Below are positions 19,976-53,761 of a stretch of 53,761 nt of DNA, piece after piece. The DNA is taken from NCBI GenBank assembly GCA_016794165.1, contig JAEUKV010000051.1:1-53761 (forward strand), written 5' to 3'. The stretch comes from Rhodospirillaceae bacterium (GTDB taxonomy: Bacteria; Pseudomonadota; Alphaproteobacteria; Dongiales; Dongiaceae). The notes under the pieces were generated by a model. The model was not told where the DNA came from and did no database searches. It saw only the letters and a program-made list of their open reading frames with translations. Positions within the stretch are counted from its first letter, which is position 1; each line of letters opens with the position of its first letter. A program made the position numbers and the translations under genes.

Positions 19976-20556
19976 CGCAATCCATCCTCTCCCTTGATAT
20001 CGGCGGCGGCAAGACCGCCGGCACGGTTGTGGATGCGCGCTCCCGTGGTCATCACCAAGGCCAGTAGTATCTCATCGGCGCGCGGGCTGTCCGGAATGCC
20101 GACCTCAATGGCGTCGAAATGGCTGCGCACATATGAAGCGTTGATATGCGTGACCGGCACATCGAGACGCGCGCCCGGCCCACCGACCTTCTTGGTCGAG
20201 GGCACGATCGCCTTGCTGTCACCCAGCACCTCGCGCATGGCATAGCCGCCCGGGGCGTGCCAGAGGGCCCCGTGTTCGATCTCGCCAGCCGAGCCGACAA
20301 TGGCTCCCTTGCCATAGCCTTGGACGATGGATCGATCGCCGCCCAGGGCCTTCACCATGTCCTGGGCGAGGGCAAGGCCGATCGGCTTCAGATCGTCCAT
20401 GAAATCGACGATGTGTTCGACATAGCGCCCGGCAAACGGGTTGCGGATCACAACCAACCCGGCTGCGCGCCGCAGCGGCTTGTTGGCGCGCGGGCCGCCT
20501 TCGTGGAAGATCTCCTCGACCGAAATCAGGCGCTTGCGGATTTCAACCTGCGGCAT
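19972..20556 (-). CDS. AA_synth (DUF1185, PF06684) family protein, copy 1
   Basis: The ATG at 20556 (start PQVEIRKRLISVEEIFHEGG) gives 194 residues, exactly the size of its neighbour; the longer in-frame extension overlaps UPF0280 and has non-protein-like composition. Shared blocks are VIRNPFAGRYVEHIVDFM, GYGKGAIVGSAGEIEHGA, SYVRSHFDAIEV and the identical C-terminal DIKGEDGLR. It overlaps the UPF0280 gene by 14 bp and the second paralogue by ATGA. Two tandem paralogues of equal length suggest a hetero-oligomer. Function is unknown. Confidence 0.8.
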   Translation of the reverse strand: MPQVEIRKRLISVEEIFHEGGPRANKPLRRAAGLVVIRNPFAGRYVEHIVDFMDDLKPIGLALAQDMVKALGGDRSIVQGYGKGAIVGSAGEIEHGALWHAPGGYAMREVLGDSKAIVPSTKKVGGPGARLDVPVTHINASYVRSHFDAIEVGIPDSPRADEILLALVMTTGARIHNRAGGLAAADIKGEDGLR

Positions 20557-33019: not shown

Positions 33020-33628
33020 TCAGGCGAGGACTACGTCCGCTGCGCGCATCCGCTCGCTCATCGCGGCCAGCGAGCCGCCGAGATCGATGGCGCGGCAGGC
33101 GCCCATCTGCACGCGGGTGTCAAAGCCGAGCTTGCGCGCATCGAGGGCCGAATAGGCGACGCAGTAATCGGTGGCAAGACCGACCAGGGTAAGGCGGGTA
33201 AGGCCGCGCTCGCGCAGATAGCCGGCAAGGCCGGTGGGTGTCGTGTGATCGTTCTCGAAGAAGGCGGAATAGGAATCGATCGCCGGGCGGAAACCCTTGC
33301 GGATCACCAGCTCTGCCTTGGTCCAGGCGAGCGCCGGATGGAACTCCGATCCCTTGCTGCCCTGCACGCAATGATCCGGCCACAGGGTTTGGCTCCCATA
33401 GGGAAGCTCGATGCTCTCGAACGGCGCCTTTCCGGCATGGGCGCTGGCAAAGCTGGTATGACCCGCCGGATGCCAGTCCTGGGTCAGGATAACATGGGCA
33501 TGGGACTGGATCAGCCGGTTGACCAGCGGAACGATCTCGTCGCCACCGGCCACCGCCAGGGCACCGCCGGGGCAGAAGTCGTTCTGCACGTCGATGACGA
33601 TGAGCGCTTCGCTGTTGTCCCTGGTCAT
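33020..33628 (-). CDS. pncA: Nicotinamidase
   Basis: The ATG at 33628 follows GGAGAG at a good distance and gives 202 residues; an ATG at 33655 would add nine. The enzyme hydrolyses nicotinamide to nicotinate and ammonia. The catalytic Asp is in VIDVQNDFCPGG, the Lys in LVIRKGF and the Cys in GLATDYCV; the metal site is DWHPAGHTSFA. It fits the B3 module directly by feeding nicotinate to the dehydrogenase, and would also serve NAD salvage. Confidence 0.92.
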   Translation of the reverse strand: MTRDNSEALIVIDVQNDFCPGGALAVAGGDEIVPLVNRLIQSHAHVILTQDWHPAGHTSFASAHAGKAPFESIELPYGSQTLWPDHCVQGSKGSEFHPALAWTKAELVIRKGFRPAIDSYSAFFENDHTTPTGLAGYLRERGLTRLTLVGLATDYCVAYSALDARKLGFDTRVQMGACRAIDLGGSLAAMSERMRAADVVLA

Positions 33629-33738
33629 GTCGCTCTCCGGGTCCATCTCGTCCATTGTGATGGCAATCCTACTGGAGGCCTCGCCCTCCCGTAAACAGTG
33701 CGCGCAACTGCCAGAATGGTGTCAGTGGGGAGATAGGA

Positions 33739-38012: not shown

Positions 38013-39641
38013 TTACGATCCCCGCTGCTCGCTCTCCCTGATCAGGTCGGCGGCACGTTCGGCGATCATCACTACGGCGGCGTTGATGTTGCCGGTGGTC
38101 ATGTCCGGCATGACGGACGCATCCACCACGCGCAGCCCCTCGGCGCCGCGCACGCGCAATTCCTGGTCGACCACCGCCAGCGGATCGTTGTCGAGACCCA
38201 TCTTGCAGGTTCCCAGCGGATGGTGAACCGTGATGGCCGTCTTGCGGATGTGCTCGTCGATCTCGGCATCCGAGCCCTTGTCGCTTCCGGGGAAGAACTC
38301 CCGCTCGATGAAGGGGCGCATCGCGGGCTGCGCCGCCACCTCGCGCGCCATCCGCACTCCGGCGCGCAACGAACGCCAATCCCCCTCGGTGCCGAGAAAT
38401 CGCTGCAGGATGCGCGGATGTTCCGTCGGATCCTGCGATTTCAGGCTTACCGTGCCGCGGCTTTCCGGATGCAGCATGACGATGCGGCAGGCAAAGCCGT
38501 CCTTGAACGGCGCCTTGAACGGTTCGAGGTAGGGCCAGGCACCCAGCGGCGCCGCGGTCAGCAGGAACTGGATGTCCGGCAGCGGCAGATCCGGGCGGCT
38601 CTTGAGAAATGCGGTGACGCCGCCCGGCACGTCGGCGGCGAAACCCTTGCCCAGGAAATAGGCCTTGCCGAGCTCGCGCACGATGCGGTCATAACGCATC
38701 ATGTTGTAGAACGGGCTCGGTTCCTTGCGGTGATACATCAGGATCACCGAGACATGATCCTGCAGGTTGCGCCCAATGCCGGGCAGGCCGATGCGCACCG
38801 GAATGCCGAGACGCTTCAACTCCTCCGGATCGCCGATGCCGGAGAGTGTCAGCAATTGCGGCGAGTTGATCACGCCGCCGGAAAGGATCACCTCGCGCTT
38901 CGCCCGCACCACGCGTTTGACGCCGCGCTGCAGGAATTCAATGCCGACGGCGCGGCTGCCCTCCATCACGATCCCGGTCGCCAGTCCATGCACCTCGATG
39001 CTGAGGTTGGGGCGCTTGCGGGCCGGCTTCAGGTAGGCGGTGGCACCACTTGAGCGCCGGCCGTTGCGGATGGTCATCTGCAGGCGGCCGAAACCTTCCT
39101 GCCGGGCGCCGTTGTAATCGTCGGTCCAGCCATGCCCGGCGCTCTGCCCGGCATCGATGAAGCCCTGCAGCAGTGGATCCTGGTAATGGCAGTACTGGGT
39201 GCCGATAGGCCCGTCGCCTCCGCGAAAGGCGTTGCCACCGCCTTCCCAGCTTTCCTGCCTGCGGAAATAGGGCAGGGCCTTGTCGTAGGACCACCCGTCG
39301 AGCCCCGAAGCGGCCCAACGGTCGTAATCGCCGCGGTTGCCGCGCACATAGGCCATGGCATTGGTGGACGAGCAGCCGCCCACCACCTTGCCGCGGGCGC
39401 ATTCGACCGCGCGGCCGCCGACGCTGGCCTCGGGCTCGCAGAAGTAGTTCCAGTCGTGGAGCCGTTTCTGCAGGATCTTGCCCCAGCCAAGGGGAATATG
39501 AATCCAGGGGTCTCGGTCCCAACCGCCGGCTTCCAGTACCAGTACGGAGGTGTTGGGGTCGGCCGAGAGGCGATTGGCAAGTACGCAGCCGGCAGAACCG
39601 GCGCCGACAATTATGTAATCGTAGCTGGCGTCCTGGGCCAT
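38013..39641 (-). CDS. GMC-family FAD oxidoreductase, candidate 4-pyridoxic acid dehydrogenase
   Basis: The ATG at 39641 gives 542 residues starting [20 protein letters not shown], the FAD-binding motif. GMC signatures include [15 protein letters not shown] and [18 protein letters not shown]; the C-terminal active-site His lies in [13 protein letters not shown] enzymes oxidise primary alcohols. The B6 pathway needs an FAD enzyme that oxidises the 5-hydroxymethyl of 4-pyridoxate to FHMPC, and no other candidate is visible, so that assignment is proposed. A choline-dehydrogenase-like alcohol oxidase is the neutral alternative. Operator-like sites lie upstream at 39719-39758. Confidence 0.85.
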
Positions 39642-39848: not shown

Positions 39849-40664
39849 TTATTGCTGGGCGGTGCCGGCGGGGAAGGCGTGCTCGAAAATGTAGCGCTGC
39901 ACGTCGCTGAGGTGCTGGTGCATCAGTTCCTGGGCGCGGTCGCCCTGCCGGGCCGCGATCGCCGCCGAAATCTCGTGGTGGAAATCGGCATAGACAGACT
40001 GGCGCTTGTAGCAGTTCGCGTTTTCGCCCAGACGCCGCCAGCCCGTGTCGCGCTGACTGGCATGGAGCGTGTCGAACACGGCCAGGAACAGGGTGTTGCG
40101 TGCGACCTCGGCGATGGTCCGGTGAAAGCTGGCATCGGCCGCCTGATAGCTGGCGGGGTCGGCGGCCGACCTGGTTTCCTCGGCCAGGGATTGCAGGCGA
40201 TTGATCTCCGTCTGCGAGGCCCGGAAAGCCGCGAGGCGCGCCATCACTGGCTCGATTGCAAGGCGAACTTCGATCACTTCCAGCGGATTGGTATGGTCGA
40301 GGATCTGTTCGTAACTCTGGCGCGCGGCAGTCGCGCCGGGCAAGGCCCGGCCGGATGTCATCGCGGCGGTCATCAGTTCCGTCGCGGCGCCTGCGGCTTG
40401 CTGGCCGTTGCCCCCATTTTGGCCATTGCGATTGCCGTTGCTTCGCGTGACAAAGGTGCCGCGGCCCTGATGGCGCGAGATCTGGCCTTCCTGTTCCAGG
40501 ATATCGAGGGCGCGGCGCAGGGAGCGGCGACCGACACCCAACTCGCTCGCCAGGGAGCGTTCCGGCGGCATGCGGCCATCCCCGTCCCAGTCATGGCCGG
40601 CGATCAGCCGGCGCAGTTTGGCCAGGGTCGGGTCGTTGCGCTCGATGGTTGTTTCCGGGGGCAT
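39849..40664 (-). CDS. GntR-family regulator, FCD (FadR-like) subfamily
   Basis: This 271-residue protein has a winged helix at about 32-75 (MPPERSLASELGVGRRSLRRAL, then the wing SRHQGRGTFV), a Gly/Asn-rich linker near 75-90 and an all-helical FCD effector domain with putative metal ligands in DASFHRTIAE, DFHHEISAAI and HQHLSDV. It is divergent from the ten-gene B6 operon, with a perfect palindrome between. It is the likely B6-catabolism regulator, with a pyridoxine derivative as effector (inference). Confidence 0.88.
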   Translation of the reverse strand: MPPETTIERNDPTLAKLRRLIAGHDWDGDGRMPPERSLASELGVGRRSLRRALDILEQEGQISRHQGRGTFVTRSNGNRNGQNGGNGQQAAGAATELMTAAMTSGRALPGATAARQSYEQILDHTNPLEVIEVRLAIEPVMARLAAFRASQTEINRLQSLAEETRSAADPASYQAADASFHRTIAEVARNTLFLAVFDTLHASQRDTGWRRLGENANCYKRQSVYADFHHEISAAIAARQGDRAQELMHQHLSDVQRYIFEHAFPAGTAQQ

Positions 40665-40912: not shown

Positions 40913-42091
40913 ATGACTGCTCAGCGTATCAAGGCCGGGGAAAAAAAAGCCGCTGGCCTCGGCGACGGCAGCAACCTCCAGGCGGCACTCGACCAGCTTC
41001 ATGCCGATGTCGCCAAGGCCAACATGGCCGGCTATTGGGTGGTCGACCGCAGTGTCAAGAATGACGAAGACCGCCAGGTAATGGATACCCGCAAGGCGAT
41101 CCCTTTCCTGTGGCAGTACAAGGGAGATATCGAGCCGCTGCTCTATCGCTCGGCTGAACTGATCACGACCGAGAGTTCCGAGCGTCGCTCGCTCGTCCTG
41201 GTCAATCCGGGTCTGGCGCCCAAGCGCGCCACAACCACCAACATGTACGTCTCCTATCGCCTCAACGACCCCAACGAGATCATGCCTCCGCACCGGCATT
41301 CGCCCAACGCTATCCGGCTTGGTCTCATCGGAAATCAGAACTTCACCGGCGTCGAGGGCGAGAACATCGTCTTCGGACCCGGCGATCTGGTGCTGACGCC
41401 GCACGACACTTGGCACAACCATGGCAATCAGGGCGACGCGAACGCGATCAATCTGTCGGTTCTCGACCTTCCCCTGGCCGAGACCATGAACTGCATGTAT
41501 TTCGAGCACGACTATACGGAGGAGGAAGAAGGCATCCGCGTTGCGCGCAAGATGCAGTCGGAGCGCTTTCCGCCGACCTATTCGCAAATGGTCTACGGTC
41601 ATGGCGGGCTGATGCCGCGCTTCGTTTCGCACAATCGCGGTGCCGGGGCTGCTTCGCCGATGTATGTCTATCGCTATGACATGATGCGCGAAGCGCTGGA
41701 GAAGTTCCGCGACTGGGACGGCGACCCCTATGAGGCGCTGATGATCGAGTATGTCGATCCCACGAACGGCCTTTCCGTGTTCAAGACCATTACGTTTTTC
41801 ATGCAGATGCTGCGTCCGGGCGAGAAGACGCTGCCGTTGAAGCAGAGCGCCAGCCTGGTTGTCTCGCCCTTCGAGGGCCAGGGCCACAGCATCATCGGCG
41901 ACAAGAAGATCGCCTGGGACCGCTTCGATACGCTGGCGGTACCGGGTGGTTCCTGGTGCCAGCATGTCAATACCTCGGCCACGCAGCCGGCGATCCTGTT
42001 CGTTGCCAGCGACGAACCGGCGCTGAAGGCACTGGCTTTCTACCAGAAGCATGGCCGGAATCAGAACGGCGACATTGTCAAGCTGAGCTGA
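40913..42091 (+). CDS. Gentisate/salicylate 1,2-dioxygenase-like bicupin
   Basis: This 392-residue protein follows GGAGG and belongs to the ring-cleaving Fe(II) bicupin family. The N-terminal cupin has three His in the positions of the iron ligands: H127 and H129 in PPHRHSP and H168 in TWHNHGN. The spacing equals that of salicylate 1,2-dioxygenase as I recall it (119, 121, 160). The second cupin (from about 300; EGQGHSIIGDKKIAWDRFD) lacks the HxH pair. Such enzymes cleave between a hydroxyl- and a carboxyl-bearing ring carbon. As first gene of a B6 operon it may act on the hydroxypyridine dicarboxylate (inference). It may instead act on a different aromatic acid. Confidence 0.85.
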   Translation: MTAQRIKAGEKKAAGLGDGSNLQAALDQLHADVAKANMAGYWVVDRSVKNDEDRQVMDTRKAIPFLWQYKGDIEPLLYRSAELITTESSERRSLVLVNPGLAPKRATTTNMYVSYRLNDPNEIMPPHRHSPNAIRLGLIGNQNFTGVEGENIVFGPGDLVLTPHDTWHNHGNQGDANAINLSVLDLPLAETMNCMYFEHDYTEEEEGIRVARKMQSERFPPTYSQMVYGHGGLMPRFVSHNRGAGAASPMYVYRYDMMREALEKFRDWDGDPYEALMIEYVDPTNGLSVFKTITFFMQMLRPGEKTLPLKQSASLVVSPFEGQGHSIIGDKKIAWDRFDTLAVPGGSWCQHVNTSATQPAILFVASDEPALKALAFYQKHGRNQNGDIVKLS

Positions 42092-42131
42092 CCCCCGATA
42101 TCACTCTCGCCGCGGAAGACCGACGAATACC

Positions 42132-43259
42132 ATGGCACGTTCGAAAAACTGCAACTTGCTCGCCAATTTCGACTGCCCCGGCGGCGGTCAGGTCTGGGTC
42201 GAGAAGAACATCCTCTATGTCGGCCACATGCGCCAGCCGACCGGCACGACGATCGTCGACGTCTCGGATCCGCGCAAGCCGAAGACCCTGGCACGGATCG
42301 AGATGCCGCCCGGCTGGCATTCCCACAAGGTGCGCGTCGCCAACGACATTATGGTGGTCAATCACGAGCGCCAGGGAATGGAGGGCGATGCCGGTTTCGG
42401 CGGCGGCCTCGGCATCTATGACGTCTCGAAACCGGCCAATCCGCGCCTCATTTCGAAATGGCGTACCCATGGCAAAGGGGTGCATCGCTACGATTTCGAC
42501 GGCCGCTACGCCTATATCTCGCCGACCGCCGAGGGGTATGTCGGCAACATCGCCATGATTCTCGATCTCCAGAATCCGGATAAGCCCGAGGAAGTCGGAC
42601 GCTGGTGGATCCCTGGCCAGTGGCAGGCCGGCGGCGAGGAATATCCCTGGGACAACTGGACGCCGCCGCGCTGCCACCATCCATTGCGGGTCGGTAACCG
42701 GCTCTATGTGAGCTACTGGCATCACGGTTTTTTCATCCTCGACATCGAGGACATGGCGCGACCGCAGCTGGTCTCAGCTGTCAACACCTCGCCCGCCTTT
42801 CCGCACCCGACCCATACCTGCCTGCGCCTGAAGCAGAAACTCAAGGGCCGCGACATCATGGTTGTGGCCGATGAGGACGTGGCGAAGCTGTGGCCGGCGG
42901 CCCCCGCCTTTGCCTGGGTCTATGACATCACCAATGAGCATTGCCCGATCCCTATCTCCACCTTCCAGGTGGAGGGACTCGACAAGGACGGTTCGCCGCA
43001 GCCGCCGATGATGGGCTGCCATCAGCCATCGGAGCGATTCAATGGCACCATCATTCCCTTCGCCTGGTTCGCCCAGGGTCTGCGCCTGGTCGATTTCGCC
43101 GATCCGTTCAAGCCGGTTGAAGTCGGCTTCTACGAAACCGACGCGCCGCCGGGCTTCGACCTTGCCTCGTCCAACGACGTCACCATGGACGACCGTGGCA
43201 TCCTCTATCTGATCGACCGCCAGCGCGGCGTCGATATCATCGAAACGTCGGTATTCTAA
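42132..43259 (+). CDS. LVIVD-repeat beta-propeller protein, unknown function
   Basis: This 375-residue protein has repeated beta-propeller blades of LVIVD type (TTIVDVSDPRKPKTLAR, LGIYDVSKPANPRLIS, ILDIEDMARPQLVS, LRLVDFADPFKPVEVG). No signal peptide is evident. His-rich loops recur at equivalent blade positions: GWHSHKV, GVHRYDF, RCHHPLRV, HPTHTCLR and GCHQPSERF, a pattern seen in metal-binding propellers. It could therefore be an enzyme. It lies 40 bp after the cupin gene and 17 bp before RidA. I do not recognise a named function. Confidence 0.8.
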   Translation: MARSKNCNLLANFDCPGGGQVWVEKNILYVGHMRQPTGTTIVDVSDPRKPKTLARIEMPPGWHSHKVRVANDIMVVNHERQGMEGDAGFGGGLGIYDVSKPANPRLISKWRTHGKGVHRYDFDGRYAYISPTAEGYVGNIAMILDLQNPDKPEEVGRWWIPGQWQAGGEEYPWDNWTPPRCHHPLRVGNRLYVSYWHHGFFILDIEDMARPQLVSAVNTSPAFPHPTHTCLRLKQKLKGRDIMVVADEDVAKLWPAAPAFAWVYDITNEHCPIPISTFQVEGLDKDGSPQPPMMGCHQPSERFNGTIIPFAWFAQGLRLVDFADPFKPVEVGFYETDAPPGFDLASSNDVTMDDRGILYLIDRQRGVDIIETSVF

Positions 43260-43276
43260 CAATCGCGGGGACAGGC

Positions 43277-43657
43277 ATGAGTGACGACATCATTCCGATC
43301 GGCAAGAAGAACCCGAACCTGCCATTCCACCCGGCCGCGCGCGCGGGAGATTTCATCTTTGTATCGGGACAAGTTGCCAAGGATGAGAACGGCAACATGT
43401 GCGTCGGCAACATCGAGGAAGAGACCCGCTGGACCCTGGAATCGATCAAGCGGATCCTGGCTTTGGATGGTGCCGATCTCGGCGATGTCGTAAAAGTGAC
43501 CGTCTATCTGGAAGACGCGCGAAACTTCGGCCGCTACAATCGAATTTTCGCGGAATACTTTCCGGACGGTCGGGTTTCGCGGACCACCGTGGAGGCGCGC
43601 GCCGCGATCGAATGCAAGCTCGAGATGGATGCCGTCGCCTACAAGCCCAAGCGTTGA
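43277..43657 (+). CDS. RidA-family imine/enamine deaminase
   Basis: This 126-residue protein has the RidA/YjgF/UK114 features FIFVSGQVAKDENG, DVVKVTVYLEDARNF and VSRTTVEARA. The catalytic-type Arg of RidA is present at R102, so imine hydrolysis is possible; many relatives without it are inactive. RidA hydrolyses 2-imino/enamine acids such as 2-iminopropionate. Its place after a ring dioxygenase suggests it processes an imine released from the pyridine ring (inference). Confidence 0.9.
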   Translation: MSDDIIPIGKKNPNLPFHPAARAGDFIFVSGQVAKDENGNMCVGNIEEETRWTLESIKRILALDGADLGDVVKVTVYLEDARNFGRYNRIFAEYFPDGRVSRTTVEARAAIECKLEMDAVAYKPKR

Positions 43658-43717
43658 GCTGGGCTTGAGATAGGGTAGAAGTTAAAGGCGGCGGTTGCCG
43701 TCGCCGGCAAGAAGAAT

Positions 43718-43735
43718 GCGGGGCTTCGGCCCCGC
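43718..43735 (+). other. UUCG tetraloop hairpin between RidA and GST genes
   Basis: GCGGGGC-TTCG-GCCCCGC forms a perfect 7-bp stem closed by an extra-stable UUCG loop, 20 bp before the GST start. No T-run follows. It may set differential mRNA stability inside the operon. Confidence 0.6.
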
Positions 43736-43755
43736 CTCGACAGGGAGATTGAAAA

Positions 43756-44358
43756 ATGCTGCGAGTTCTCGGCCGCGCCACATCGGGCAACGTACAGAAG
43801 GTTCTGTTTCTGCTCGAGGAGATGAAACTGCCCTATCAGCGGGAAGATTACGGACGGCAGTTCAACAACACCCAGGATGCGAGCTATCTCGGCCTCAATC
43901 CCAACGGCAAGGTACCGACCCTGGTCGATGGCGACATCGCGGTTTGGGAATCGAACACCATCCTGCGCTATCTCGCGAACAAACATGGGGCGACGGCACT
44001 CTATCCCACCGACCCGGCGGCGCGCAGCCAGGTCGAACGCTGGATGGACTGGTTGCTGGCCTCACTCAATGGCCCCTACGTCGCCATCTTCAAGGAATCG
44101 AAGAAGCCGGCCGGCGAGCGAGCCGCCAGCTGGGACGCCGATGCCAAGGAACTGAAGGCGCAACTCGACATCCTGGCCAAGGGGACTGCCGGCCGCGAGT
44201 ATCTTGCCGGCAAGGACTTCACGCTGGCAGATATCAGCCTTGCGCCGATCGTGCATCGCTGCCTCGATTTTCCGGTCGATCTGCCGGGGTTGGAGGGACT
44301 GCGTGCCTGGCGCGACAAGGTGACATCGCGCCCGGCCTTCAAGAAGGCGGCCGGCTGA
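43756..44358 (+). CDS. Glutathione S-transferase family protein
   Basis: This 200-residue protein has an N-terminal thioredoxin-like domain (GRATSGNVQKVLFLLEEM; Ser10 is in the activating position) with the GSH-binding NPNGKVPTL and ESNTIL (E65, S66), and a helical C-terminal domain with FTLADISLAPIVHR. GST relatives act as GSH-dependent cis-trans isomerases after gentisate-type ring cleavage, so in this operon an isomerase or dehalogenase-like role is plausible. The substrate is unknown. Confidence 0.88.
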   Translation: MLRVLGRATSGNVQKVLFLLEEMKLPYQREDYGRQFNNTQDASYLGLNPNGKVPTLVDGDIAVWESNTILRYLANKHGATALYPTDPAARSQVERWMDWLLASLNGPYVAIFKESKKPAGERAASWDADAKELKAQLDILAKGTAGREYLAGKDFTLADISLAPIVHRCLDFPVDLPGLEGLRAWRDKVTSRPAFKKAAG

Positions 44359-44455
44359 GTGGAACGTGGTTGGCGAAGGCGGCAGCAAGACCGCCAGACA
44401 TGAATGGCCGGAAAAGATTAGCTGAGCGACGCGACAATTTCGCTTGAGGGAGCAG

Positions 44456-45373
44456 ATGACGACCGCAGCCGTGATCGGCCTGGGCACCATGGGACCGGGG
44501 ATTGTCGCCACGCTGGCGCGCGCCGGTGTGGCTGTCTGCGCTTACGATACCGACGCTGCTCAGCATGCCAGGGCGGCGGCCGGTTTTGATCTCGCGGCCA
44601 AGGTGCTGGATTCCCTGGCTGTTGCTACCCAGCCGGGCGGTTCGATCCGCATTGCCGACACGCTGGCGGGGGCCGTTGCCGGCGCTGACCTGGTGATCGA
44701 GAATGTGCCTGAGAAACTTGAACTCAAGATTGAGGTCTTCCGCGCCATCGAGGCTCTGGTGCGCCCGGATTGCGTCCTGGCTTCCGACACGTCCGGCATT
44801 CCCATCACACGCATCCAGGAAGGCCTCGCCAACCCGACGCGCGTGATCGGCATGCACTGGTCGAATCCACCGCACATCATTCCCATGATCGAGGTGGTTG
44901 CCGGCAAACGGACCGCGCCGGAGATCGTAACCTGGATGGTGGATCTCGTCCGGCGCATCGGCCATCTTCCCGTCGTGATCAAGCGGGACGTACCGGGATT
45001 CGTGGAGAACCGGGTACTCTACTCCGTGATGCGCGAATGCATCGACCTCGTTGAGCAGGGTGTCATCGATCCGGAGGATCTCGATACCTGTGTCTCCTGG
45101 GGCATCGGCTACAAATTGGCGGTTGTGGGGCCGATGGCGCTCCTCGACATGGCGGGCCTGGACATCTATCAAGCCGTCGGCAGCTATCTCAACAAGGAGC
45201 TGTGCGATCGCGACGACGTTGCCGGCTACGTCACCGATCGCACGGCCGCGGGCAAACTCGGCATGAAGAGCGGTGCCGGCATTTTCGACTATACACCCGA
45301 GCGAATTGCAGAACTGCGCGACTGGCGGGCCCGAAAACTGGTCGCCGTGCGCCAGGCGCTGCAGTCGCGATGA
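44456..45373 (+). CDS. 5-formyl-3-hydroxy-2-methylpyridine-4-carboxylate (FHMPC) 5-dehydrogenase
   Basis: The ATG at 44456 follows GAGGGAG and gives 305 residues. The fold is that of 3-hydroxyacyl-CoA dehydrogenases (AVIGLGTMGPGIVATLARAG for NAD). The catalytic His134 lies in GMHWSNPPHIIPMIE. Long blocks such as SDTSGIPIT, PGFVENRVLY and EDLDTCVSWGIGYK match the M. loti FHMPC dehydrogenase (mlr6793) as I remember it. It oxidises the 5-formyl of FHMPC to 3-hydroxy-2-methylpyridine-4,5-dicarboxylate. A plain 3-hydroxyacyl-CoA dehydrogenase is the less likely alternative. Confidence 0.88.
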   Translation: MTTAAVIGLGTMGPGIVATLARAGVAVCAYDTDAAQHARAAAGFDLAAKVLDSLAVATQPGGSIRIADTLAGAVAGADLVIENVPEKLELKIEVFRAIEALVRPDCVLASDTSGIPITRIQEGLANPTRVIGMHWSNPPHIIPMIEVVAGKRTAPEIVTWMVDLVRRIGHLPVVIKRDVPGFVENRVLYSVMRECIDLVEQGVIDPEDLDTCVSWGIGYKLAVVGPMALLDMAGLDIYQAVGSYLNKELCDRDDVAGYVTDRTAAGKLGMKSGAGIFDYTPERIAELRDWRARKLVAVRQALQSR

Positions 45374-45561: not shown

Positions 45562-46623
45562 ATGAGCAAATTCTCGAGAAGATCAGTAGCGCGGTCGGCA
45601 TTGGCCGCCGCCATGATGACCAGCGTGTTCGCCATCTCCGGTGGCGCGCTCGCGGCCGATGTCAAGTCGATCGCCGTGCTGACCCCGGAAGAGCCGACCG
45701 ATTTCGGCTGGAACCAGCAGGGCCATGACGCCGCCAAGGCAGTAGCCGAGAAGTTCGGCCTGGAATTCATCCCGGCGACCGGTCTCGGGTATGGCGATGT
45801 GCATCCGCAATTGCGCGAAGTGGCCGATGACGGCGCCAGCCTGATCATCGCCCATGCCAGCGGTTACAACACGGCGGCGCCCGAAGTCGGTGCCGAGAAG
45901 AATGTGGCGGTGGCAATCGTCGACCGGCCGGACGCCAACAAGCCGGGCGCCGTCGCCGATTATACGCTGAGCGGCCATGAAGGCGCCTATCTCGCTGGTA
46001 TTCTGGCGGCCAAGACCTCGACCACGGGGACCGTGGGCATCGTCGTCTCGGGCGAACCGCCGTCATGGAACTCGCAGTCGGCGGCTTTCGCGCAGGGCGT
46101 CAAGGCGGCAAATGCGGACATGAAAGTCCTCTATGCCGTCATCGGCCCGGCCGCCTATTCCGATGCCGCCGGCGGCCGCCGCGTCACCGATCAGGTCATA
46201 GCCGCCGGTGCGGACGTGATCTTCGGCCAGGGCGACGGTGCCACCTTCGGTATGCTGCAGGCGACCGAGACCGGCAAGTCGGCCTCGGGCGGCAAGGTCC
46301 TGTTCATCGACGTGATCGGTGACAAGAGCGGCATGGAAGGCGCAACCAGTCTGCTGTCCTCGGTCGTCTGGAACCTGGTCCCGGTCTATACGGCCATGGT
46401 CGAGGATCTGAAGGCCGACAAGTTCGGTACCCGTGGCTACTCGATCCAGCTCGCCGATGATTCCGTGCAGCTGATCAGGACCGGCAACGGGTCGGACGAG
46501 GCCTGGGCGGCAGTCGAGGAGGTCAAGAAGCAGATCATCGATGGAAGCCTGAAGATCGAGCCGGTCTGGGATGCCAAGGACGTTCGCGCCCTGATGAGCT
46601 CGGTAACCGACGCCCCGCAATAA
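45562..46623 (+). CDS. BMP-family ABC transporter substrate-binding protein
   Basis: The ATG at 45562 follows AGGAGG (45549-45554) and gives 353 residues with a signal peptide (about 1-31, SGGALAA-DVK). It has the BMP/Med/PnrA fold hallmarks TPEEPTDFGWNQQGHDAAK and GHEGAYLAGILAAKT. BMP proteins bind nucleosides and, in spirochaetes, riboflavin. Standing between FHMPC dehydrogenase and 4-pyridoxolactonase genes, a B6 vitamer ligand is likely here (inference). Confidence 0.88.
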   Translation: MSKFSRRSVARSALAAAMMTSVFAISGGALAADVKSIAVLTPEEPTDFGWNQQGHDAAKAVAEKFGLEFIPATGLGYGDVHPQLREVADDGASLIIAHASGYNTAAPEVGAEKNVAVAIVDRPDANKPGAVADYTLSGHEGAYLAGILAAKTSTTGTVGIVVSGEPPSWNSQSAAFAQGVKAANADMKVLYAVIGPAAYSDAAGGRRVTDQVIAAGADVIFGQGDGATFGMLQATETGKSASGGKVLFIDVIGDKSGMEGATSLLSSVVWNLVPVYTAMVEDLKADKFGTRGYSIQLADDSVQLIRTGNGSDEAWAAVEEVKKQIIDGSLKIEPVWDAKDVRALMSSVTDAPQ

Positions 46624-46695
46624 ACCCGCGTTGGCGATCATGTGCACAGGGCCACGCCGCGGGGTTCGCGACGTGGCCCGCTGCAGAGTGGAAGA

Positions 46696-48312
46696 ATGAG
46701 CGAAATTGAACCGCCGGCGATGTCGTCCGGGATATCGCATGCCGCACCGCCCGTCGTCGCCGTCCGCCAGGTTACCAAGCGGTTTCCGGGTGTTCTCGCC
46801 AATGACCGGATCTCGCTCGAGTTCCGCGCTGGCGAGGTGCATGTCCTCCTCGGCGAGAATGGGGCGGGCAAATCCACCCTGATCGGCATTCTCGCTGGCA
46901 TGCAGCAACCCGACGAGGGTGAAGTCCTGGTCGACGGCCGCGCGGTCACGATCGGTTCGCCGCGGGAAAGTCTGGAATACGGCATCGGCACGGTTTTCCA
47001 GCATGTGTTGCTGGTGCCGAGCCTGAGTGTAATCGAAAACCTGATGCTCGGCGGCAATTGGTGGCAGCGCCTGAGCCGCGGCCCGGCTCTGGCGCGGTTC
47101 AGGGAACTCTCGGCCCTGCTCGGCGTGACCATTGATCCCGATGCCGAGGTTGGGCGCCTGTCCCTCGGCGAGCAGCAGCAGGTTGAGATCATGCGCGCCC
47201 TGTGGCGCGGCGAGAAGGTCCTGATCCTCGACGAACCCACCTCGATGCTGACCCCGCAGGGTGTCCACGACCTTGGCCAGGTCATGCGCCGTCTTCGCGA
47301 CAAGGGAGTCGCCCTCATCCTGATCACCCACAAGCTGATGGAAGCCTATGAATTCGGTGATCGCATCTCGGTCCTGCGCCTCGGCCGCGTGGTGGGTGAC
47401 ATCCCGCCCGAACGTCTGCGATCGATGAGCGAGGCGGAAACCACGGAGGCCGTCATCGAGATGATGTTCGGTTCCACCGCTGAACATGCGCGCGACGCGG
47501 AGACGCTGGTTGGCCGTGGTCGCCCGGTGCACAGGGATCGCACCGTGGACCGCAGCGCCCCGCCGCTCCTTGCGGTTCGCGACCTGGAAACCGAGGCGAC
47601 ACGCGGCGAATGCCCGTTGCGGCATGTGAGTTTCGATTTGTGGCCGGGCGAAGTGCTCGGCATCGCCGGGGTCGATGGCAATGGGCAGAAGCACCTGGCC
47701 GAAGTCCTCGCCGGGCAGCGCGCAGTGGCCGCCGGTCGGATCGACCTTGCCGGCATGGACGTGACGGATGACGGCGTTCCGGCACGACGGCGCCACGGTG
47801 TACGCTATGTCACTGACGAGCGGCTGGGCGAGGGCACCGTCGGCATTTTTTCGGTTGCCACCAATCTGGTTCTTAAGGAAATCGGTACCGAGCCGCTCTG
47901 GCGGCGCGGCTGGAGCGATTGGGGTCGAATCCACGAGCACGCGCGCGACCAGATCGAGCGCAACGATATCCGCACCCCTTCGGAAAAGACCCCGGTCGCG
48001 CGGCTGTCCGGCGGCAACATCCAGAAGGTGCTGCTGGCGCGCGAACTCAACACCGATGCCAGAGTGGCAGTGTTCAACAAGCCCACTTACGGGCTCGACC
48101 TGCAGAACACCCGCATCGCCCACGAACGGATCGTCACCAGCGCCGATCGTGGCGTGGCCGTGGTCGTTGTTTCCACCGATCTCGACGAACTCATCCAGGT
48201 GAGCGACCGAATCGGCGTCATGTTCCAGGGCCGCCTTGCCGGAATCGTCGAGAACGGTCCGGATGTGGAGCGCCGGGTCGGCCTCCTGATGACCGGGGCG
48301 GAGGCGGCATGA
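46696..48312 (+). CDS. ABC transporter ATP-binding protein with two ATPase domains
   Basis: The ATG at 46696 gives 538 residues. The first domain is canonical: Walker A GENGAGKST (53-61), signature LSLGEQQQVEIMRAL, Walker B LILDEPTSML. The second is degenerate (GVDGNGQKHL at Walker A, NKPTYGLD at Walker B) with an intact signature LSGGNIQKVLLAREL, as usual in this nucleoside-type group. Its stop overlaps the next permease (ATGA). Confidence 0.9.
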   Translation: MSEIEPPAMSSGISHAAPPVVAVRQVTKRFPGVLANDRISLEFRAGEVHVLLGENGAGKSTLIGILAGMQQPDEGEVLVDGRAVTIGSPRESLEYGIGTVFQHVLLVPSLSVIENLMLGGNWWQRLSRGPALARFRELSALLGVTIDPDAEVGRLSLGEQQQVEIMRALWRGEKVLILDEPTSMLTPQGVHDLGQVMRRLRDKGVALILITHKLMEAYEFGDRISVLRLGRVVGDIPPERLRSMSEAETTEAVIEMMFGSTAEHARDAETLVGRGRPVHRDRTVDRSAPPLLAVRDLETEATRGECPLRHVSFDLWPGEVLGIAGVDGNGQKHLAEVLAGQRAVAAGRIDLAGMDVTDDGVPARRRHGVRYVTDERLGEGTVGIFSVATNLVLKEIGTEPLWRRGWSDWGRIHEHARDQIERNDIRTPSEKTPVARLSGGNIQKVLLARELNTDARVAVFNKPTYGLDLQNTRIAHERIVTSADRGVAVVVVSTDLDELIQVSDRIGVMFQGRLAGIVENGPDVERRVGLLMTGAEAA

Positions 48313-49397
48313 GCATCGAAACCAAAGTTGATTCGCTGCCAGGCGACCCGTTCCGGGGTGAACGTGCGCGCGAGATCCAGGCGGCGATCCTGCGCGTCCT
48401 CATTCCGATCCTGGCGGCGCTGGTGATCGGCGGTCTCATCCTGCTGATCCTCGGCAAGAACCCGCTCGAATATTATGGCTATGTCCTGCGCCGCGGCCTG
48501 CTGACCTGGGGCGGGTTGCAGGAGACCTTCACGCGCATGGCGCCGCTGCTGCTGATCTCGGCGGGGCTCATCGTCGCCTTCCGTGCCGGCATCTGGAATC
48601 TGGGTTGCGACGGCCAGTTCCTGCTGGCGGCGGTTATTTCCGCGGCGGTGGGCCCGGCCCTCATTGACGTCCTGCCGCGCGGCATCACCCTGGTCGCCTG
48701 CATGGTGGTCTCGGTGCTGGTAGCGGCTCTCTGGTCCCTGATCCCGGCGATTCTGAAGTCGCGCTATGGCATCAACGAAATCATTACCTCGCTGATGATG
48801 AGTTTCCTCGGCATCAGCTTCGCCAATGTGCTCGTGAAGCTGTTCTTCGCCGATCCCGGCACCACTGTGCCGCAGACCCGCGATCTCGCCGTTGTCGACC
48901 GCCTGCCGCGCCTGTTCGACACGACCATCCATGCCGGGCTGCTGATCGCCCTTGCCGTGGTGATCCTGGTTCATCTGATGATGACCCGCACTGCCTTCGG
49001 CCTGAAGCTGCAAGTAGTGGGTGCCAATCCCGCCGCCGCCATCCATGCCGGGCTCAATGTGGGCTGGCTGACGATCCTGACCTTCGCCATCAGCGCCGGT
49101 TTGATCGGTCTCGGCGGGTCGATCGAAATTCTCGGCGTCTGGGGCAATGTGCGGGCAGACTGGAATCCGGCCTTCGGCCTGCTCGTCGTGCCGTTGGTGT
49201 TCCTTGCCCGCTTCAATGGCTATGCGGTGATCGGCTTCACCCTGTTCTTCTCGGCCCTGATGATCGGCGGCGATTCCGCGGCGCGCCGGGTCGGTGTGCC
49301 GAGCGATTTTGTGCTGGTGCTGGTTGCCCTGGTGCTGATTTTTCTGGCGGTGGTCGAATACCTCGATCATCTGCGGCGCAAACGGACCACGGCCTGA
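48309..49397 (+). CDS. ABC transporter permease, nucleoside (BmpB/YufP) type
   Basis: The ATG at 48309 overlaps the upstream stop and gives 362 residues; longer in-frame starts run into the ATPase gene. About nine helices are predicted, with hallmarks FRAGIWNLGCDGQF, GINEIITSLMMSFLG and LGGSIEILGVWGNV of this permease family. It is partnered by the next gene. Confidence 0.9.
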   Translation: MSIETKVDSLPGDPFRGERAREIQAAILRVLIPILAALVIGGLILLILGKNPLEYYGYVLRRGLLTWGGLQETFTRMAPLLLISAGLIVAFRAGIWNLGCDGQFLLAAVISAAVGPALIDVLPRGITLVACMVVSVLVAALWSLIPAILKSRYGINEIITSLMMSFLGISFANVLVKLFFADPGTTVPQTRDLAVVDRLPRLFDTTIHAGLLIALAVVILVHLMMTRTAFGLKLQVVGANPAAAIHAGLNVGWLTILTFAISAGLIGLGGSIEILGVWGNVRADWNPAFGLLVVPLVFLARFNGYAVIGFTLFFSALMIGGDSAARRVGVPSDFVLVLVALVLIFLAVVEYLDHLRRKRTTA

Positions 49398-49400
49398 CTC

Positions 49401-50336
49401 ATGGAAGGACTCCTCACCCAGCCGTTCCTCACGGCACTGCTCTTCGGCGCGGTCACCGCCGGCATACCGTTGCTGCTCGCGGGGCTTGGCGAACAGATCT
49501 CGGAGAAGGCCGGGGTTCTCAACATCGGTATCGAAGGGATGATGCTCTTTGGCGCCTATACCGGCTTCGTTGCCGCCTATTATTCCGGCTCCTTCGGGTT
49601 GGGTTTCCTTGCTGGAGGACTGGGCGGGATGCTGGTGGCCAGCCTCGTCATGCTCTTCTGCATCCGTTTCGGCCTGAACCAGATCGTCATCGGCATCGCC
49701 GTGACCCTGGGCTTCGAGGGCCTCACCTCGCTGCTGCATCACTTCCAGTTCAGTCGCACCTATCCGCGTCTTTCGGCAGCACCTACCCTGGCCATTCCGG
49801 GCCTGTCCGAGATTCCCGTGCTGGGGCCGGGGCTCTTCCAGCAGAACGCGATGGTCTATCTGGCGGTGGCGCTGGTAGTCTTCATGGCCTGGCTGTTTCG
49901 CAACACTTATGTCGGCCTCAATCTCGAGGCGGCGGGCAGCAAGCCGGCGGCGCTAGATGCCGCCGGGGTCGATGTCCTGCGCACTCGGGCCTGCGCCGTA
50001 TTGAGCACCGGTTTCCTGGCAGGTGTCGGGGGTGCCTTCATGGCCAATGTCGGGGCTGGCATCTTCGTGCCCTTCATGACCGGCGGCGCCGGTTTCATCG
50101 GCATCGTGCTCGCCATGCTGGCGCGGGGGCGGCCAATCTGGGTCCTGCTTGGGGCCATCCTGTTCGGCGTCAGCCTCGCCATGACCACCGCGCTGCAGGT
50201 TGCCGGCGTCAACATTCCGACCGACGTTGTGCAGATGCTGCCATTCGCCATGGTGATGCTGGTTCTGGTAATCTTTGCCCGCCACAGCGTATTGCCGCCG
50301 GCCTTGGGCTTGCCCTATGTGCGGGGCGATCGGTAA
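49401..50336 (+). CDS. ABC transporter permease, nucleoside (YufQ) type
   Basis: This 311-residue protein has about eight to nine helices and the hallmark LGEQISEKAGVLNIGIEGMML near its N-terminus, with GLNQIVIGIAVTLG and an alternating TM pattern. It starts 3 bp after the preceding permease. Together with the binding protein and ATPase it completes the importer. Confidence 0.9.
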   Translation: MEGLLTQPFLTALLFGAVTAGIPLLLAGLGEQISEKAGVLNIGIEGMMLFGAYTGFVAAYYSGSFGLGFLAGGLGGMLVASLVMLFCIRFGLNQIVIGIAVTLGFEGLTSLLHHFQFSRTYPRLSAAPTLAIPGLSEIPVLGPGLFQQNAMVYLAVALVVFMAWLFRNTYVGLNLEAAGSKPAALDAAGVDVLRTRACAVLSTGFLAGVGGAFMANVGAGIFVPFMTGGAGFIGIVLAMLARGRPIWVLLGAILFGVSLAMTTALQVAGVNIPTDVVQMLPFAMVMLVLVIFARHSVLPPALGLPYVRGDR

Positions 50337-50375: not shown

Positions 50376-51182
50376 ATGTCCGACACGAAAGTCTATCTGC
50401 TTGATGGTGGAACGCTGGTGATCGACGGCTTTCACGCATTCTGGAATCGCGGCCCGGCAGGCGAAGTACGGTTTCCCTGCTATTCGGTGCTGATCGAGCA
50501 CAAGGATGGCCGCTACATGTTCGACACCGGCTATGACTTCGACCATGTCATGCGCGTGCTGCCATTCGAAAAGCCGATCCAGGACGAAAGCCAAAAAGTC
50601 CCCGGGCAGCTCGCCAAGGTCGGCCTCAAGACCAGCGACATCAACTATGTCATCAACTCGCACTATCACTTCGATCATTGCGGCGGGAACAAGCACCTGC
50701 ATGAGGCGTGTACCATCTGCCATGCCAAGGAACTGGAACAGAGCGCCAACTGCCAGCCCTTCGAGCATCTCGGCTATTCCGATCTGACCTTCGCGCCGGA
50801 TATCGCGAAGGGGAAAGGCGTCGAGCTGCCGCCGGATCCGGCCCTCGACATGTACACGCCGAAGTTCGAGACCCTGAGCGGCGATCAGGAGATCGCCAAG
50901 GGGCTATGGCTGTTCGAGACCCCGGGGCATACCGCCGGTCATTACAGCCTGATGGTGGAGTTGAAGAACCGCCGGCCGATGCTGTTCACGGCCGATGCCT
51001 GCTACAGCAAGAAGAACATGGACATGATGTGCATCTCCAGCTTCCACCTCGATCCCACCGCCAGCCTCAATTCGATGAAGCGGTTGAAGGCGCTGGCCGA
51101 AAAGCACGATGCGGAACTGTTCTTCTCCCACGACCTGGAGAGCTTCCAGACCTACCAGACCGGCGCCAATTTCTATTCCTGA
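50376..51182 (+). CDS. 4-pyridoxolactonase
   Basis: This 268-residue metallo-beta-lactamase-fold enzyme hydrolyses 4-pyridoxolactone to 4-pyridoxate. The zinc motif NSHYHFDH gives H96, H98, D100 and H101; H185, D207 and H252 supply the rest. These numbers equal those of the M. loti enzyme (mlr6805) as I recall them, and the N-terminus DTKVYLLDGGTLVIDG matches it closely. It is preceded by GGGAGG and closes the plus-strand operon. A generic N-acyl homoserine lactonase is the older annotation for this family. Confidence 0.9.
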   Translation: MSDTKVYLLDGGTLVIDGFHAFWNRGPAGEVRFPCYSVLIEHKDGRYMFDTGYDFDHVMRVLPFEKPIQDESQKVPGQLAKVGLKTSDINYVINSHYHFDHCGGNKHLHEACTICHAKELEQSANCQPFEHLGYSDLTFAPDIAKGKGVELPPDPALDMYTPKFETLSGDQEIAKGLWLFETPGHTAGHYSLMVELKNRRPMLFTADACYSKKNMDMMCISSFHLDPTASLNSMKRLKALAEKHDAELFFSHDLESFQTYQTGANFYS

Positions 51183-51252: not shown

Positions 51253-51993
51253 TCAGTAACGCACCATGCCGGCGTCGACATTGAGCGCCTGCCCGGTGAT
51301 CCAGTGCGCTTCCTCGGAAGCAAGGAAGGCGACCGCCGGTACGATATCGTTCGGCATGCCCTTGCCCTTGATCGCCTGCAGCATCTCGACGAAGCCGAAG
51401 GCATCCTTGTGCGGGGTGGTCTGCACGCCTTCGGTATCGACGAGGCCCGGCATGACCGTGTTGACCGTGATCTTGTAGGCGCCGAGTTCCGTGGCAAGGG
51501 CCCGGCCGAAGGCGAGGACGCCGCCCTTGGAGGCGACGTAATGCGCCATGTTGGGTGTGCCGGCCAGCATGCTGTTGGAGCCGAAATTGACGATGCGTCC
51601 ATAGCCGTTCTTGCGCATCAACTCCGACCCGGCGCGGCACATCAGATAGAGCCCGTCATAATTCACCCGGGCCACGCGACGCCATTCTTCGAAGGTAAGG
51701 TCGTCCCATTTCACGAACGGGACGATGGCCGCCACGTTGACCAGCACATCGAGCTTGCCGGCCTTGGCCGTGACCGCCTCGAACAGCTTGGCGACCGAAT
51801 CGGGCTCGCCGATATCGACTTGCTGGCCGAACGACTTGCCGCCGATTTCCTTGGCGGTGGCACCGGCACCCGCACCGTTGATGTCGGCGGCGATCACGGT
51901 GGCGCCCTCCTGGCCCAGCCGCAAGGCCACCGCCTTGCCCATGCCCTGCGCGGCACCGCTCACCACCGCCACGCGACCTTCGAATCTGCGCAT
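51253..51993 (-). CDS. Pyridoxal 4-dehydrogenase (SDR family)
   Basis: The ATG at 51993 follows AGGGAG and gives 246 residues. It oxidises pyridoxal (hemiacetal) to 4-pyridoxolactone with NAD. SDR motifs are GAAQGMGKA for NAD, GSNSML for the Ser and YVASKGG for the Tyr/Lys. The blocks ASIVPFV-like AAIVPFVKWDD, AGTPNMAHYVASKGG and NVDAGMVRY match M. loti PLDH (mlr6807) as I recall. It lies 44 bp after the aminotransferase gene in the same direction. Confidence 0.88.
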   Translation of the reverse strand: MRRFEGRVAVVSGAAQGMGKAVALRLGQEGATVIAADINGAGAGATAKEIGGKSFGQQVDIGEPDSVAKLFEAVTAKAGKLDVLVNVAAIVPFVKWDDLTFEEWRRVARVNYDGLYLMCRAGSELMRKNGYGRIVNFGSNSMLAGTPNMAHYVASKGGVLAFGRALATELGAYKITVNTVMPGLVDTEGVQTTPHKDAFGFVEMLQAIKGKGMPNDIVPAVAFLASEEAHWITGQALNVDAGMVRY

Positions 51994-52037: not shown

Positions 52038-53222
52038 TCAGGCCTTGCCCTGGGCGATCACGGCGCTCGCCGCCTCGATGCCGGCGCCGAGATCGACCTT
52101 GCGGCCGAGTTTCCGGAGGGCGCCGCCGAAGGCGGTGAGGGCCACGATGGCATAGATCGGCTCGGCCACTGGCCCCATATGGCCGATGCGGATCAGCTTG
52201 CCGAGGGTGTCGTTGCGCCCGGAAGAGAACACCACGCCGAATTCGGCCCGCGCCGCCGCGATGATGTCGCTGTCCTTCATGCCGTCCGGCACCTTGACCG
52301 CCGTGCATGTGGGAGACGCGATGGCCTCGGATTTGGCCCAGAGCGAGAGGCCCATGGCCTGGATGCCGGCGCGGGTCGCCCTGGCGGTAAGGGCATGGCG
52401 ATGCCAGACCTTTTCCGCGCCCTCCTCAAGATATTGATCGAGTGCCGCGTCGAGCCCGTTCACCTCCGCCACCGAGGGGGTAAAGGGGAAGGGTTTATCC
52501 TTGCTCCAGGCATCCTTCCAGTCCTTGAGGCTGAGCGCCGAGGCGAAGGGGGCCTTCGGATTGGCCGCGATATGCTGCCAGGCTCGCTCGCTCACCGACA
52601 TCACGGTAAGGCCGGGTGCCCCGCCCAGGCATTTTCCCGGGCCGGTGATGAAGACATCGGCGAAACAATCGTCGGGGTGAATGTCCATCCCGCCGAAGGA
52701 GGAAACCGCATCGACAATGAGAAGCGCACCATGGTCGCGCACGATCTTGCCGATCTCGCGGGCCGGGTTGATCGTGCCCGACGGGGTATCGTGATGCACC
52801 AGGGAGACGACCTTGATGTCCGGTCGCTGCTTGAAGGCGGCGGCGACCGCCGCCGGGCCGATCGATTCGTTGAACGGCACCTCGATCTCGACCATCTCCT
52901 TGTGATAGCGCGCCGACCAATAGCCGAAGCCCTTGCCGTAGACGCCTGAAGCGAGATTGAGCACCACATCGTCGGGGCCGATCAGCGAGGCGGCCGTGGC
53001 CTCGATCCCCGGCGCCGGCTCGCAATGGAGAATGAGGGCCGGCTGTGCCACCCGCATCGCCTTCGCTGCCTTGCGCGCGACGTCCTCGTAGAATTGCTGG
53101 AACCAGGGGTCGTAATCATACTCCACCGGCCGTGCCAGTCCCTGCAGGACGCGGGGATAGAGGGCCACTGGTCCGGCCGAAAGTGTGATCACCGGCGGTT
53201 TGATGCTGGATCTGGATGACAT
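52038..53222 (-). CDS. ppaT: Pyridoxamine-pyruvate aminotransferase
   Basis: This 394-residue class V aminotransferase converts pyridoxamine plus pyruvate to pyridoxal plus alanine. E68 in LHCEPA, D171 in VDAVSSFGG, the Schiff-base K197 in TGPGKCLGG, R336 and R345 sit at the same positions as in the M. loti enzyme (mlr6806), and the long block DDVVLNLASGVYGKGFGYW matches. This enzyme uses pyridoxal as a substrate rather than a bound PLP cofactor. Alanine-glyoxylate aminotransferases are relatives. It is divergent from the pyridoxine oxidase-like gene. Confidence 0.92.
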   Translation of the reverse strand: MSSRSSIKPPVITLSAGPVALYPRVLQGLARPVEYDYDPWFQQFYEDVARKAAKAMRVAQPALILHCEPAPGIEATAASLIGPDDVVLNLASGVYGKGFGYWSARYHKEMVEIEVPFNESIGPAAVAAAFKQRPDIKVVSLVHHDTPSGTINPAREIGKIVRDHGALLIVDAVSSFGGMDIHPDDCFADVFITGPGKCLGGAPGLTVMSVSERAWQHIAANPKAPFASALSLKDWKDAWSKDKPFPFTPSVAEVNGLDAALDQYLEEGAEKVWHRHALTARATRAGIQAMGLSLWAKSEAIASPTCTAVKVPDGMKDSDIIAAARAEFGVVFSSGRNDTLGKLIRIGHMGPVAEPIYAIVALTAFGGALRKLGRKVDLGAGIEAASAVIAQGKA

Positions 53223-53349: not shown

Positions 53350-53761
53350 ATGCCAAAAACTGCCGACGATTGGTTCGATATTCTGGTAATTGGTGCGGGA
53401 ACAGCGGGGGCCGTGCTGGCCGCCCGGCTGAGCGAGGAGTCCGACCGGGTCGTTGGCCTGGTGGAGGCGGGTGGCCAGGCCGGCAACCCGATGATCGCCC
53501 GAATGATCGCTCAGCCGGCGCAGTGGCCGCTGCTGCAAGGAAGCGAGATCGATTGGCGCTATCGTACGGTGCCGCAGCGCCATACCGCGGGCCGGATTCA
53601 TGATTGGCCGCGCGGCCGCATCATCGGCGGATCCACCGCGATCAACGCCATGGCCCATGTGCGCGGCCATCCCAGCGATTTCGACGGCTGGGTGACAGAT
53701 GGCTGCACTGGCTGGGGTTATGCCGACCTGCTGCCCTATTTCATCAGATCGGAGACCTACA
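53350..53761 (+). CDS. Pyridoxine 4-oxidase-like GMC oxidoreductase (3' end missing)
   Basis: The frame runs from the ATG at 53350 to the window edge without a stop (137 residues). It starts MPKTADDWFDILVIGAGTAG, an FAD-binding motif, followed by the GMC signature RGRIIGGSTAINAMAHVRGH. It would oxidise the 4-hydroxymethyl of pyridoxine to pyridoxal. Assignment over another GMC alcohol oxidase rests on resemblance to M. loti pyridoxine 4-oxidase (LVEAG, RYRTVPQ-type and HDWPRG motifs) and on the divergent aminotransferase. The C-terminal catalytic His is outside the window. Confidence 0.82.
   Translation, partial: MPKTADDWFDILVIGAGTAGAVLAARLSEESDRVVGLVEAGGQAGNPMIARMIAQPAQWPLLQGSEIDWRYRTVPQRHTAGRIHDWPRGRIIGGSTAINAMAHVRGHPSDFDGWVTDGCTGWGYADLLPYFIRSETY

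Follow-up and report, generated by a model that had tools for sequence, protein, structure and literature searches.

A vitamin B6 catabolic locus of a Dongia-related bacterium with a putative cupin-LVIVD module for ring opening

Only two routes have been described for the bacterial breakdown of vitamin B6 (PMC3538738). Here we analyzed a locus from a Rhodospirillaceae bacterium (GCA_016794165.1; genome completeness 98.7%, closest to Dongia) that lies on contig JAEUKV010000051.1, the whole 53,761 nt of which is called the window below. The locus shares with the pathway of Mesorhizobium loti and Pseudomonas MA-1 the transporter, transaminase, pyridoxal dehydrogenase, lactonase, GMC enzyme and FHMPC dehydrogenase, but it differs in having no decarboxylase for 3-hydroxy-2-methylpyridine-4,5-dicarboxylate (HMPDC; enzyme structure 2z7b), no MHPC oxygenase (3alj) and no acetamidomethylene-succinate hydrolase (3kxp). 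In place of these three enzymes, loci of the window type have a cupin protein and an LVIVD-repeat beta-propeller, often with a RidA-family protein and a glutathione S-transferase (GST). Judged by its gene content, the locus is complete for vitamin B6 catabolism, with a ring-opening module of another kind forming its lower part. We consider it probable that the cupin and LVIVD proteins form a ring-opening unit that acts on HMPDC supplied by an M. loti-type upper route.

The module occupies positions 40913-45373 on the plus strand with short intergenic gaps, and all five of its proteins are small and soluble-looking. The initial annotation of this DNA had described an operon of cupin, RidA, GST and FHMPC dehydrogenase. 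All four genes were confirmed, but that gene list was incomplete, the LVIVD gene at 42132-43259 having been overlooked. The module genes are as follows.

40913..42091, plus strand: bicupin, proposed HMPDC ring-cleaving dioxygenase (iron ligands H127, H129, H168; family-specific R116, N180, S182)
42132..43259, plus strand: LVIVD-repeat beta-propeller, proposed hydrolase of the ring-fission product (Pfam LVIVD 48.6 bits, cut-off 20.2)
43277..43657, plus strand: RidA-family imine/enamine deaminase, accessory (Pfam PF01042 85.9 bits)
43756..44358, plus strand: glutathione S-transferase family protein, accessory (profile and Pfam matches)
44456..45373, plus strand: FHMPC 5-dehydrogenase (NF042925 510.4 bits, cut-off 500; 4om8 404 bits)

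The distribution of the two lower modules was compared in 28 genomes with FHMPC dehydrogenase, drawn from the order of the window genome, its class and the Rhizobiales, a sample that leans to the window's own family. Reference enzymes were taken from the M. loti-type locus L106, where their identities are set by solved structures (MHPC oxygenase 3alj, 844 bits; HMPDC decarboxylase 2z7b, 460 bits; amide hydrolase 3kxp, 509 bits). The cupin was present at 58% identity or more in 23 of the 28 genomes. None of these 23 had the HMPDC decarboxylase (best match 32% identity), the amide hydrolase (at E 1e-25) or the MHPC oxygenase, for which the best match was an unlinked protein of 42% identity in genome G302 and all others reached at most 32%. 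The same kind of extra paralogue as in G302 is found in the canonical genomes G662 and G645. The remaining five genomes carried the decarboxylase, MHPC oxygenase and amide hydrolase together at 73-100% identity and lacked this cupin family (best 34%). The expectation that cupin and FHMPC dehydrogenase would co-occur without the decarboxylase and MHPC oxygenase was thus borne out: 23 of 28 genomes were cupin only, 5 of 28 canonical only, and the exclusion was complete. Furthermore, the three canonical enzymes, reported earlier as not visible, were absent from the window and from the rest of the 98.7%-complete genome. The 28-genome exclusion and the genome-wide absence together support the original proposal of a cupin-based branch that dispenses with these enzymes. 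Among the genomes tested the cupin form was commoner than the M. loti form, and in this group of soil and water bacteria the cupin and its partner appear to replace the three M. loti enzymes. The chance of such a split is 1 in 98,280 if the genomes are independent, which they are not, and the phylogenetic tree therefore weighs more than this figure.

In the tree of FHMPC dehydrogenases the module label needs three changes, at least two of them forced by well-supported branches, and all lie inside the Rhizobiales clade. A cupin-type locus, L109 (genome G606), branches inside the M. loti-like group; the transporter binding proteins of L109 and the canonical L106 share 96% identity. The cupin, LVIVD, RidA and GST genes are present at L109 and the decarboxylase, oxygenase and hydrolase genes are absent. 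The replacement took place within Rhizobiales loci that match in other respects. The simplest interpretation is that the two modules have the same overall task downstream of HMPDC.

The cupin and LVIVD genes also travel together. Among 397 Rhizobiales genomes, 7 carried the cupin at 70% identity or more, and these 7 and no others carried LVIVD at that level; six of them had FHMPC dehydrogenase. A search for close cupin relatives, with one genome taken per species, gave 48 loci in Alpha-, Beta- and Gammaproteobacteria. FHMPC dehydrogenase was encoded in the same stretch in about 36 of the 48, almost always with LVIVD. The arrangement is not due to chance, since it recurs in dozens of independent contigs. 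RidA and/or GST were missing from eight clusters (L049, L056, L058, L065, L066, L077, L085 and L090), RidA itself from L049, L058, L065, L066, L085 and L090. The compact L049 has FHMPC dehydrogenase, transporter, lactonase, dehydrogenase and transaminase, to which only cupin and LVIVD are added. As several otherwise complete clusters miss RidA and/or GST, cupin and LVIVD make up the core of the module, to which RidA and GST are accessory. The initial annotation had treated RidA and GST as steps of the branch; that they are essential steps was rejected on the same grounds. Searches of plasmids with FHMPC dehydrogenase and 4-pyridoxolactonase returned no B6 locus (best 43% and 31%). A seemingly broken cupin gene in genome G013 was also rejected, the TGA in the match preceding the start codon. 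In L090 (8124-19145) the order is cupin, FHMPC dehydrogenase and LVIVD, followed by pyruvate carboxylase-like and hydantoinase A/B-like genes, named by reading of their sequences; the former would fit a pathway that yields pyruvate.

The genes of the M. loti-type upper pathway down to HMPDC are all present at the window locus. Those outside the five-gene module, together with the regulator, are listed here.

38013..39641, minus strand: GMC flavoprotein, probable 4-pyridoxate dehydrogenase (69% identity to the GMC gene of L106)
39849..40664, minus strand: GntR/FadR-type regulator, divergent from the operon (Pfam GntR and FCD; beside the cupin in most relatives)
45562..46623, plus strand: B6 ABC transporter substrate-binding protein, BMP family (NF047927 462.7 bits, cut-off 400)
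46642..48312, plus strand: B6 ABC transporter ATP-binding protein (NF047930 824.2 bits, cut-off 670)
48303..49397, plus strand: B6 ABC transporter permease 2 (NF047929 556.5 bits, cut-off 400)
49401..50336, plus strand: B6 ABC transporter permease 1 (NF047928 551.5 bits, cut-off 465)
50376..51182, plus strand: 4-pyridoxolactonase (NF047925 487.5 bits, cut-off 325)
51253..51990, minus strand: pyridoxal 4-dehydrogenase, SDR type (NF047923 409.5 bits, cut-off 325)
52038..53222, minus strand: pyridoxamine-pyruvate transaminase (NF046070 647.5 bits, cut-off 600)
53350..53761, plus strand: second GMC oxidoreductase, start only at the contig end, candidate pyridoxine 4-oxidase (53% identity over 123 residues to L106:1147-2727)

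The proposed identity of the FHMPC dehydrogenase stands: it scores 510 bits against a curated 500, and among solved structures the M. loti enzyme 4om8 matches it best (404 bits, the next 149). The product of this enzyme is HMPDC. In L106 the counterpart of the upstream GMC gene sits between the HMPDC decarboxylase and FHMPC dehydrogenase genes, a position that suggests 4-pyridoxate dehydrogenase for the window protein. The truncated second GMC gene resembles the other GMC gene of L106 and may encode pyridoxine 4-oxidase. The upper part would then run as in M. loti, from uptake through pyridoxamine, pyridoxal, 4-pyridoxolactone, 4-pyridoxate and FHMPC to HMPDC. As for the 5-pyridoxate route of Pseudomonas IA and Arthrobacter Cr-7, no MHPC-oxygenase-like flavoprotein was found in the window genome at E 1e-20, the 5-pyridoxate enzymes themselves not being among the queries.

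The cupin is gentisate/salicylate-dioxygenase-like with three iron-type His, as first described; its relatives by sequence and by fold are 2d40, 3bu7 and 2phd. It scored 205.3 bits against the gentisate 1,2-dioxygenase profile TIGR02272 (curated 442) and 195 bits against the 5-aminosalicylate dioxygenase profile (curated 650), both less than half of the cut-off. Equivalents of the iron ligands His119, His121 and His160 are kept (window H127, H129 and H168), as are those of Arg83, Arg127 and His162 of salicylate dioxygenase (SDO), the last two being R135 and H170 in the window protein. Gln108, Trp172 and Asp174 contact the substrate and are conserved in all gentisate dioxygenases (PMC11264262). 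They were replaced by Arg116, Asn180 and Ser182 in every cupin relative read at these positions. The cupin residues are compatible with an ortho-hydroxy-carboxylate as substrate but not with gentisate. HMPDC is a salicylate-like pyridine (3-OH/4-COOH) that carries a second carboxylate; the extra Arg116 could bind this group and would suit such a substrate. Module exclusion and replacement, the co-occurrence of cupin with LVIVD and the residue pattern make HMPDC ring cleavage by the cupin a well supported prediction. The Arg116/Asn180/Ser182 pattern was rejected as a mark of B6 loci only, because a sister clade without B6 genes shares it. In this clade (L069-L075 and L078-L080) Phe replaces Tyr at the SDO 104 position while the Arg/Asn/Ser pattern is kept; several members adjoin a molybdenum hydroxylase and some lie near a CoA ligase.

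On the comparative data, no other protein accompanies the cupin as faithfully as LVIVD, which is likelier to be the core partner than RidA or GST. The predicted structure of LVIVD (mean pLDDT 85.7) has the LVIVD repeats and the propeller fold, and the best relative by both sequence and fold is the Sphingobium TCM1 phosphotriesterase 5hrm. Many His, Asp and Glu residues are invariant, including H63, H65, H118, H182, H183, H197, H198, H225, H228 and H297. A metal-dependent hydrolase of the ring-fission product is the probable function. Four further loci (L153, L154, L155 and L156) encode LVIVD relatives at 54-57% identity with no adjacent cupin of this family, and the genes lie beside transporters and amidohydrolase-like genes.

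The matches of the RidA protein include 2-aminomuconate deaminase and RutC alongside general RidA proteins, and the equivalent of the catalytic Arg, Arg108, is present in 28 of 29 sequences. RutC and 2-aminomuconate deaminase act on enamines from ring cleavage, and we therefore place RidA at the aminomethylene (enamine) half of the product, which is more likely than the pyruvate imine named in the initial annotation. The GST scored 59.4 bits against TIGR01262 (maleylpyruvate/maleylacetoacetate isomerase) and did not reach the curated 171. With a score below this cut-off and no isomerase signature, its assignment as a maleylpyruvate isomerase is not supported.

Salicylate dioxygenase cleaves between the carbons that bear OH and COOH. 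In the scheme that we propose, the bicupin, a relative of salicylate and gentisate dioxygenases with a binding pocket of its own, most likely cleaves HMPDC directly with O2 and with no prior decarboxylation. By SDO chemistry, cleavage would fall between C3-OH and C4-COOH, and the expected product would be HOOC-C(CH3)=N-CH=C(COOH)-CO-COOH. The LVIVD propeller, related to a metal-dependent hydrolase, most likely hydrolyzes this ring-fission product. RidA probably accelerates the release of ammonia from the aminomethylene portion, with GST as an optional helper. The predicted end products are pyruvate, ammonia and a C5 formyl-oxaloacetate-type acid. The comparative data support the identity of the upper pathway, the module replacement, the cupin-LVIVD pair and the residue pattern; what we infer is which substrate the cupin uses, which bond it cleaves and what LVIVD, RidA and GST do.

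Several observations weigh against this scheme. The role proposed for LVIVD is based on remote similarity, and relatives about 55% identical to it are found in the absence of the cupin. The sister cupin clade has the same Arg/Asn/Ser pattern beside unrelated genes. Cupin and LVIVD are also paired where FHMPC dehydrogenase is absent (G397, L064, L076 and L081): the clusters of G397 and L081 include a GMC enzyme, and the genomes of L064 and L076 have no FHMPC dehydrogenase. The pair can therefore serve another or a more direct input. Clusters of this kind might take 4-pyridoxate directly or another pyridine. The betaproteobacterial L081 (9099-17799) comprises a GntR-like regulator, cupin, LVIVD, RidA, GST, a GMC enzyme and a TRAP-type transporter; its genome has no FHMPC dehydrogenase, and the cluster is possibly one for 4-pyridoxate scavenging.

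Clusters with cupin, LVIVD and GMC genes and no FHMPC dehydrogenase (L081 and L150) agree with an alternative in which the cupin opens a B6 intermediate at another bond, or an earlier intermediate, FHMPC or 4-pyridoxate, both of which have the 3-OH/4-COOH pair. We think this unlikely, since in the B6 loci FHMPC dehydrogenase adjoins the cupin in almost every cluster and a second carboxylate would suit the extra arginine, Arg116. The same steps could also be divided differently, with the cupin decarboxylating HMPDC and the His-rich LVIVD propeller acting as the ring-opening oxygenase. Cupin decarboxylases exist and some beta-propellers are metal oxygenases; moreover, LVIVD is no less constant in the module than the cupin and contains numerous invariant His, and the cupin-type genomes have no decarboxylase homologue. 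This division is nevertheless improbable, because the cupin retains the iron ligands and the O2-activating Arg and His of gentisate and salicylate dioxygenases, its nearest folds are ring-cleaving dioxygenases rather than oxalate decarboxylase, and the nearest LVIVD relative is a hydrolase. Finally, the best named cupin matches being gentisate and 5-aminosalicylate dioxygenases, the module might degrade an unrelated aromatic (gentisate, aminosalicylate) and lie in a B6 locus by accident, with the canonical genes elsewhere or the pathway ending at HMPDC, but this is very hard to credit given the low profile scores (205 of 442, 195 of 650), the three replaced gentisate-contacting residues, the genome-wide absence of the canonical genes and the recurrence of the association across Alpha-, Beta- and Gammaproteobacteria.

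If direct opening of HMPDC by the cupin-LVIVD module is true, it represents a third bacterial way of destroying vitamin B6, adds a pyridine substrate to the gentisate-type cupins, provides a candidate function for LVIVD propellers and is a clear case of non-homologous module replacement within one vitamin pathway. No description of a cupin-based B6 branch was found in the open-access literature, subscription journals being mostly outside the search. The chemistry of the substrate, HMPDC, is known, and the ring-opening proposal is directly testable. More tentatively, and with somewhat less confidence than doubt, we suggest that the Arg116/Asn180/Ser182 cupin clade opens 3-hydroxypyridine carboxylates or related N-heterocycles, that LVIVD proteins are a new class of hydrolase for aza ring-fission products, and that the two form a portable cassette for B6 and, without FHMPC dehydrogenase, for other N-heterocycles.

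Elsewhere in the window, a minus-strand cluster at 18942-26527 encodes a MarR regulator, an AA_synth (PF06684) protein, a hypothetical-family protein over the NF003322 cut-off, an unassigned protein of 495 residues that is Cys-rich at its start, and a molybdenum hydroxylase together with the FAD subunit. It resembles another N-heterocycle degradation set, which we presume to be perhaps nicotinate-like. A nicotinamidase/pyrazinamidase gene (33020-33655; 215 bits, curated 174) lies on the same contig as the B6 locus.

Compared with gentisate and salicylate 1,2-dioxygenases, the window cupin shares the bicupin fold, the N-terminal three-His iron site and the R83/R127/H162 equivalents, whereas identity is 25-29%, Q108R, W172N and D174S set it apart, the gene context is another one, and the C-terminal cupin domain lacks the HxH motif that is present in 3bu7. 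The LVIVD protein shares its type of beta-propeller with the haloalkylphosphorus hydrolase (phosphotriesterase) of Sphingobium TCM1 (5hrm), but it is about 20% identical to this enzyme, which has another substrate. With RutC and 2-aminomuconate deaminase, relatives that deaminate enamines from ring cleavage, the window RidA has in common the RidA fold and the conserved Arg, but it falls under the curated cut-offs of the RutC profile (67 of 169) and of TIGR00004 (75.5 of 106). The gene set of the gentisate pathway consists of a cupin dioxygenase, a GST-type isomerase and a hydrolase. By analogy, the window module would follow the same general plan, in which a cupin dioxygenase is combined with a GST and a candidate hydrolase. 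Here, however, a beta-propeller is the candidate for the hydrolase, and the GST, which is dispensable, lies outside the maleylpyruvate isomerase family.

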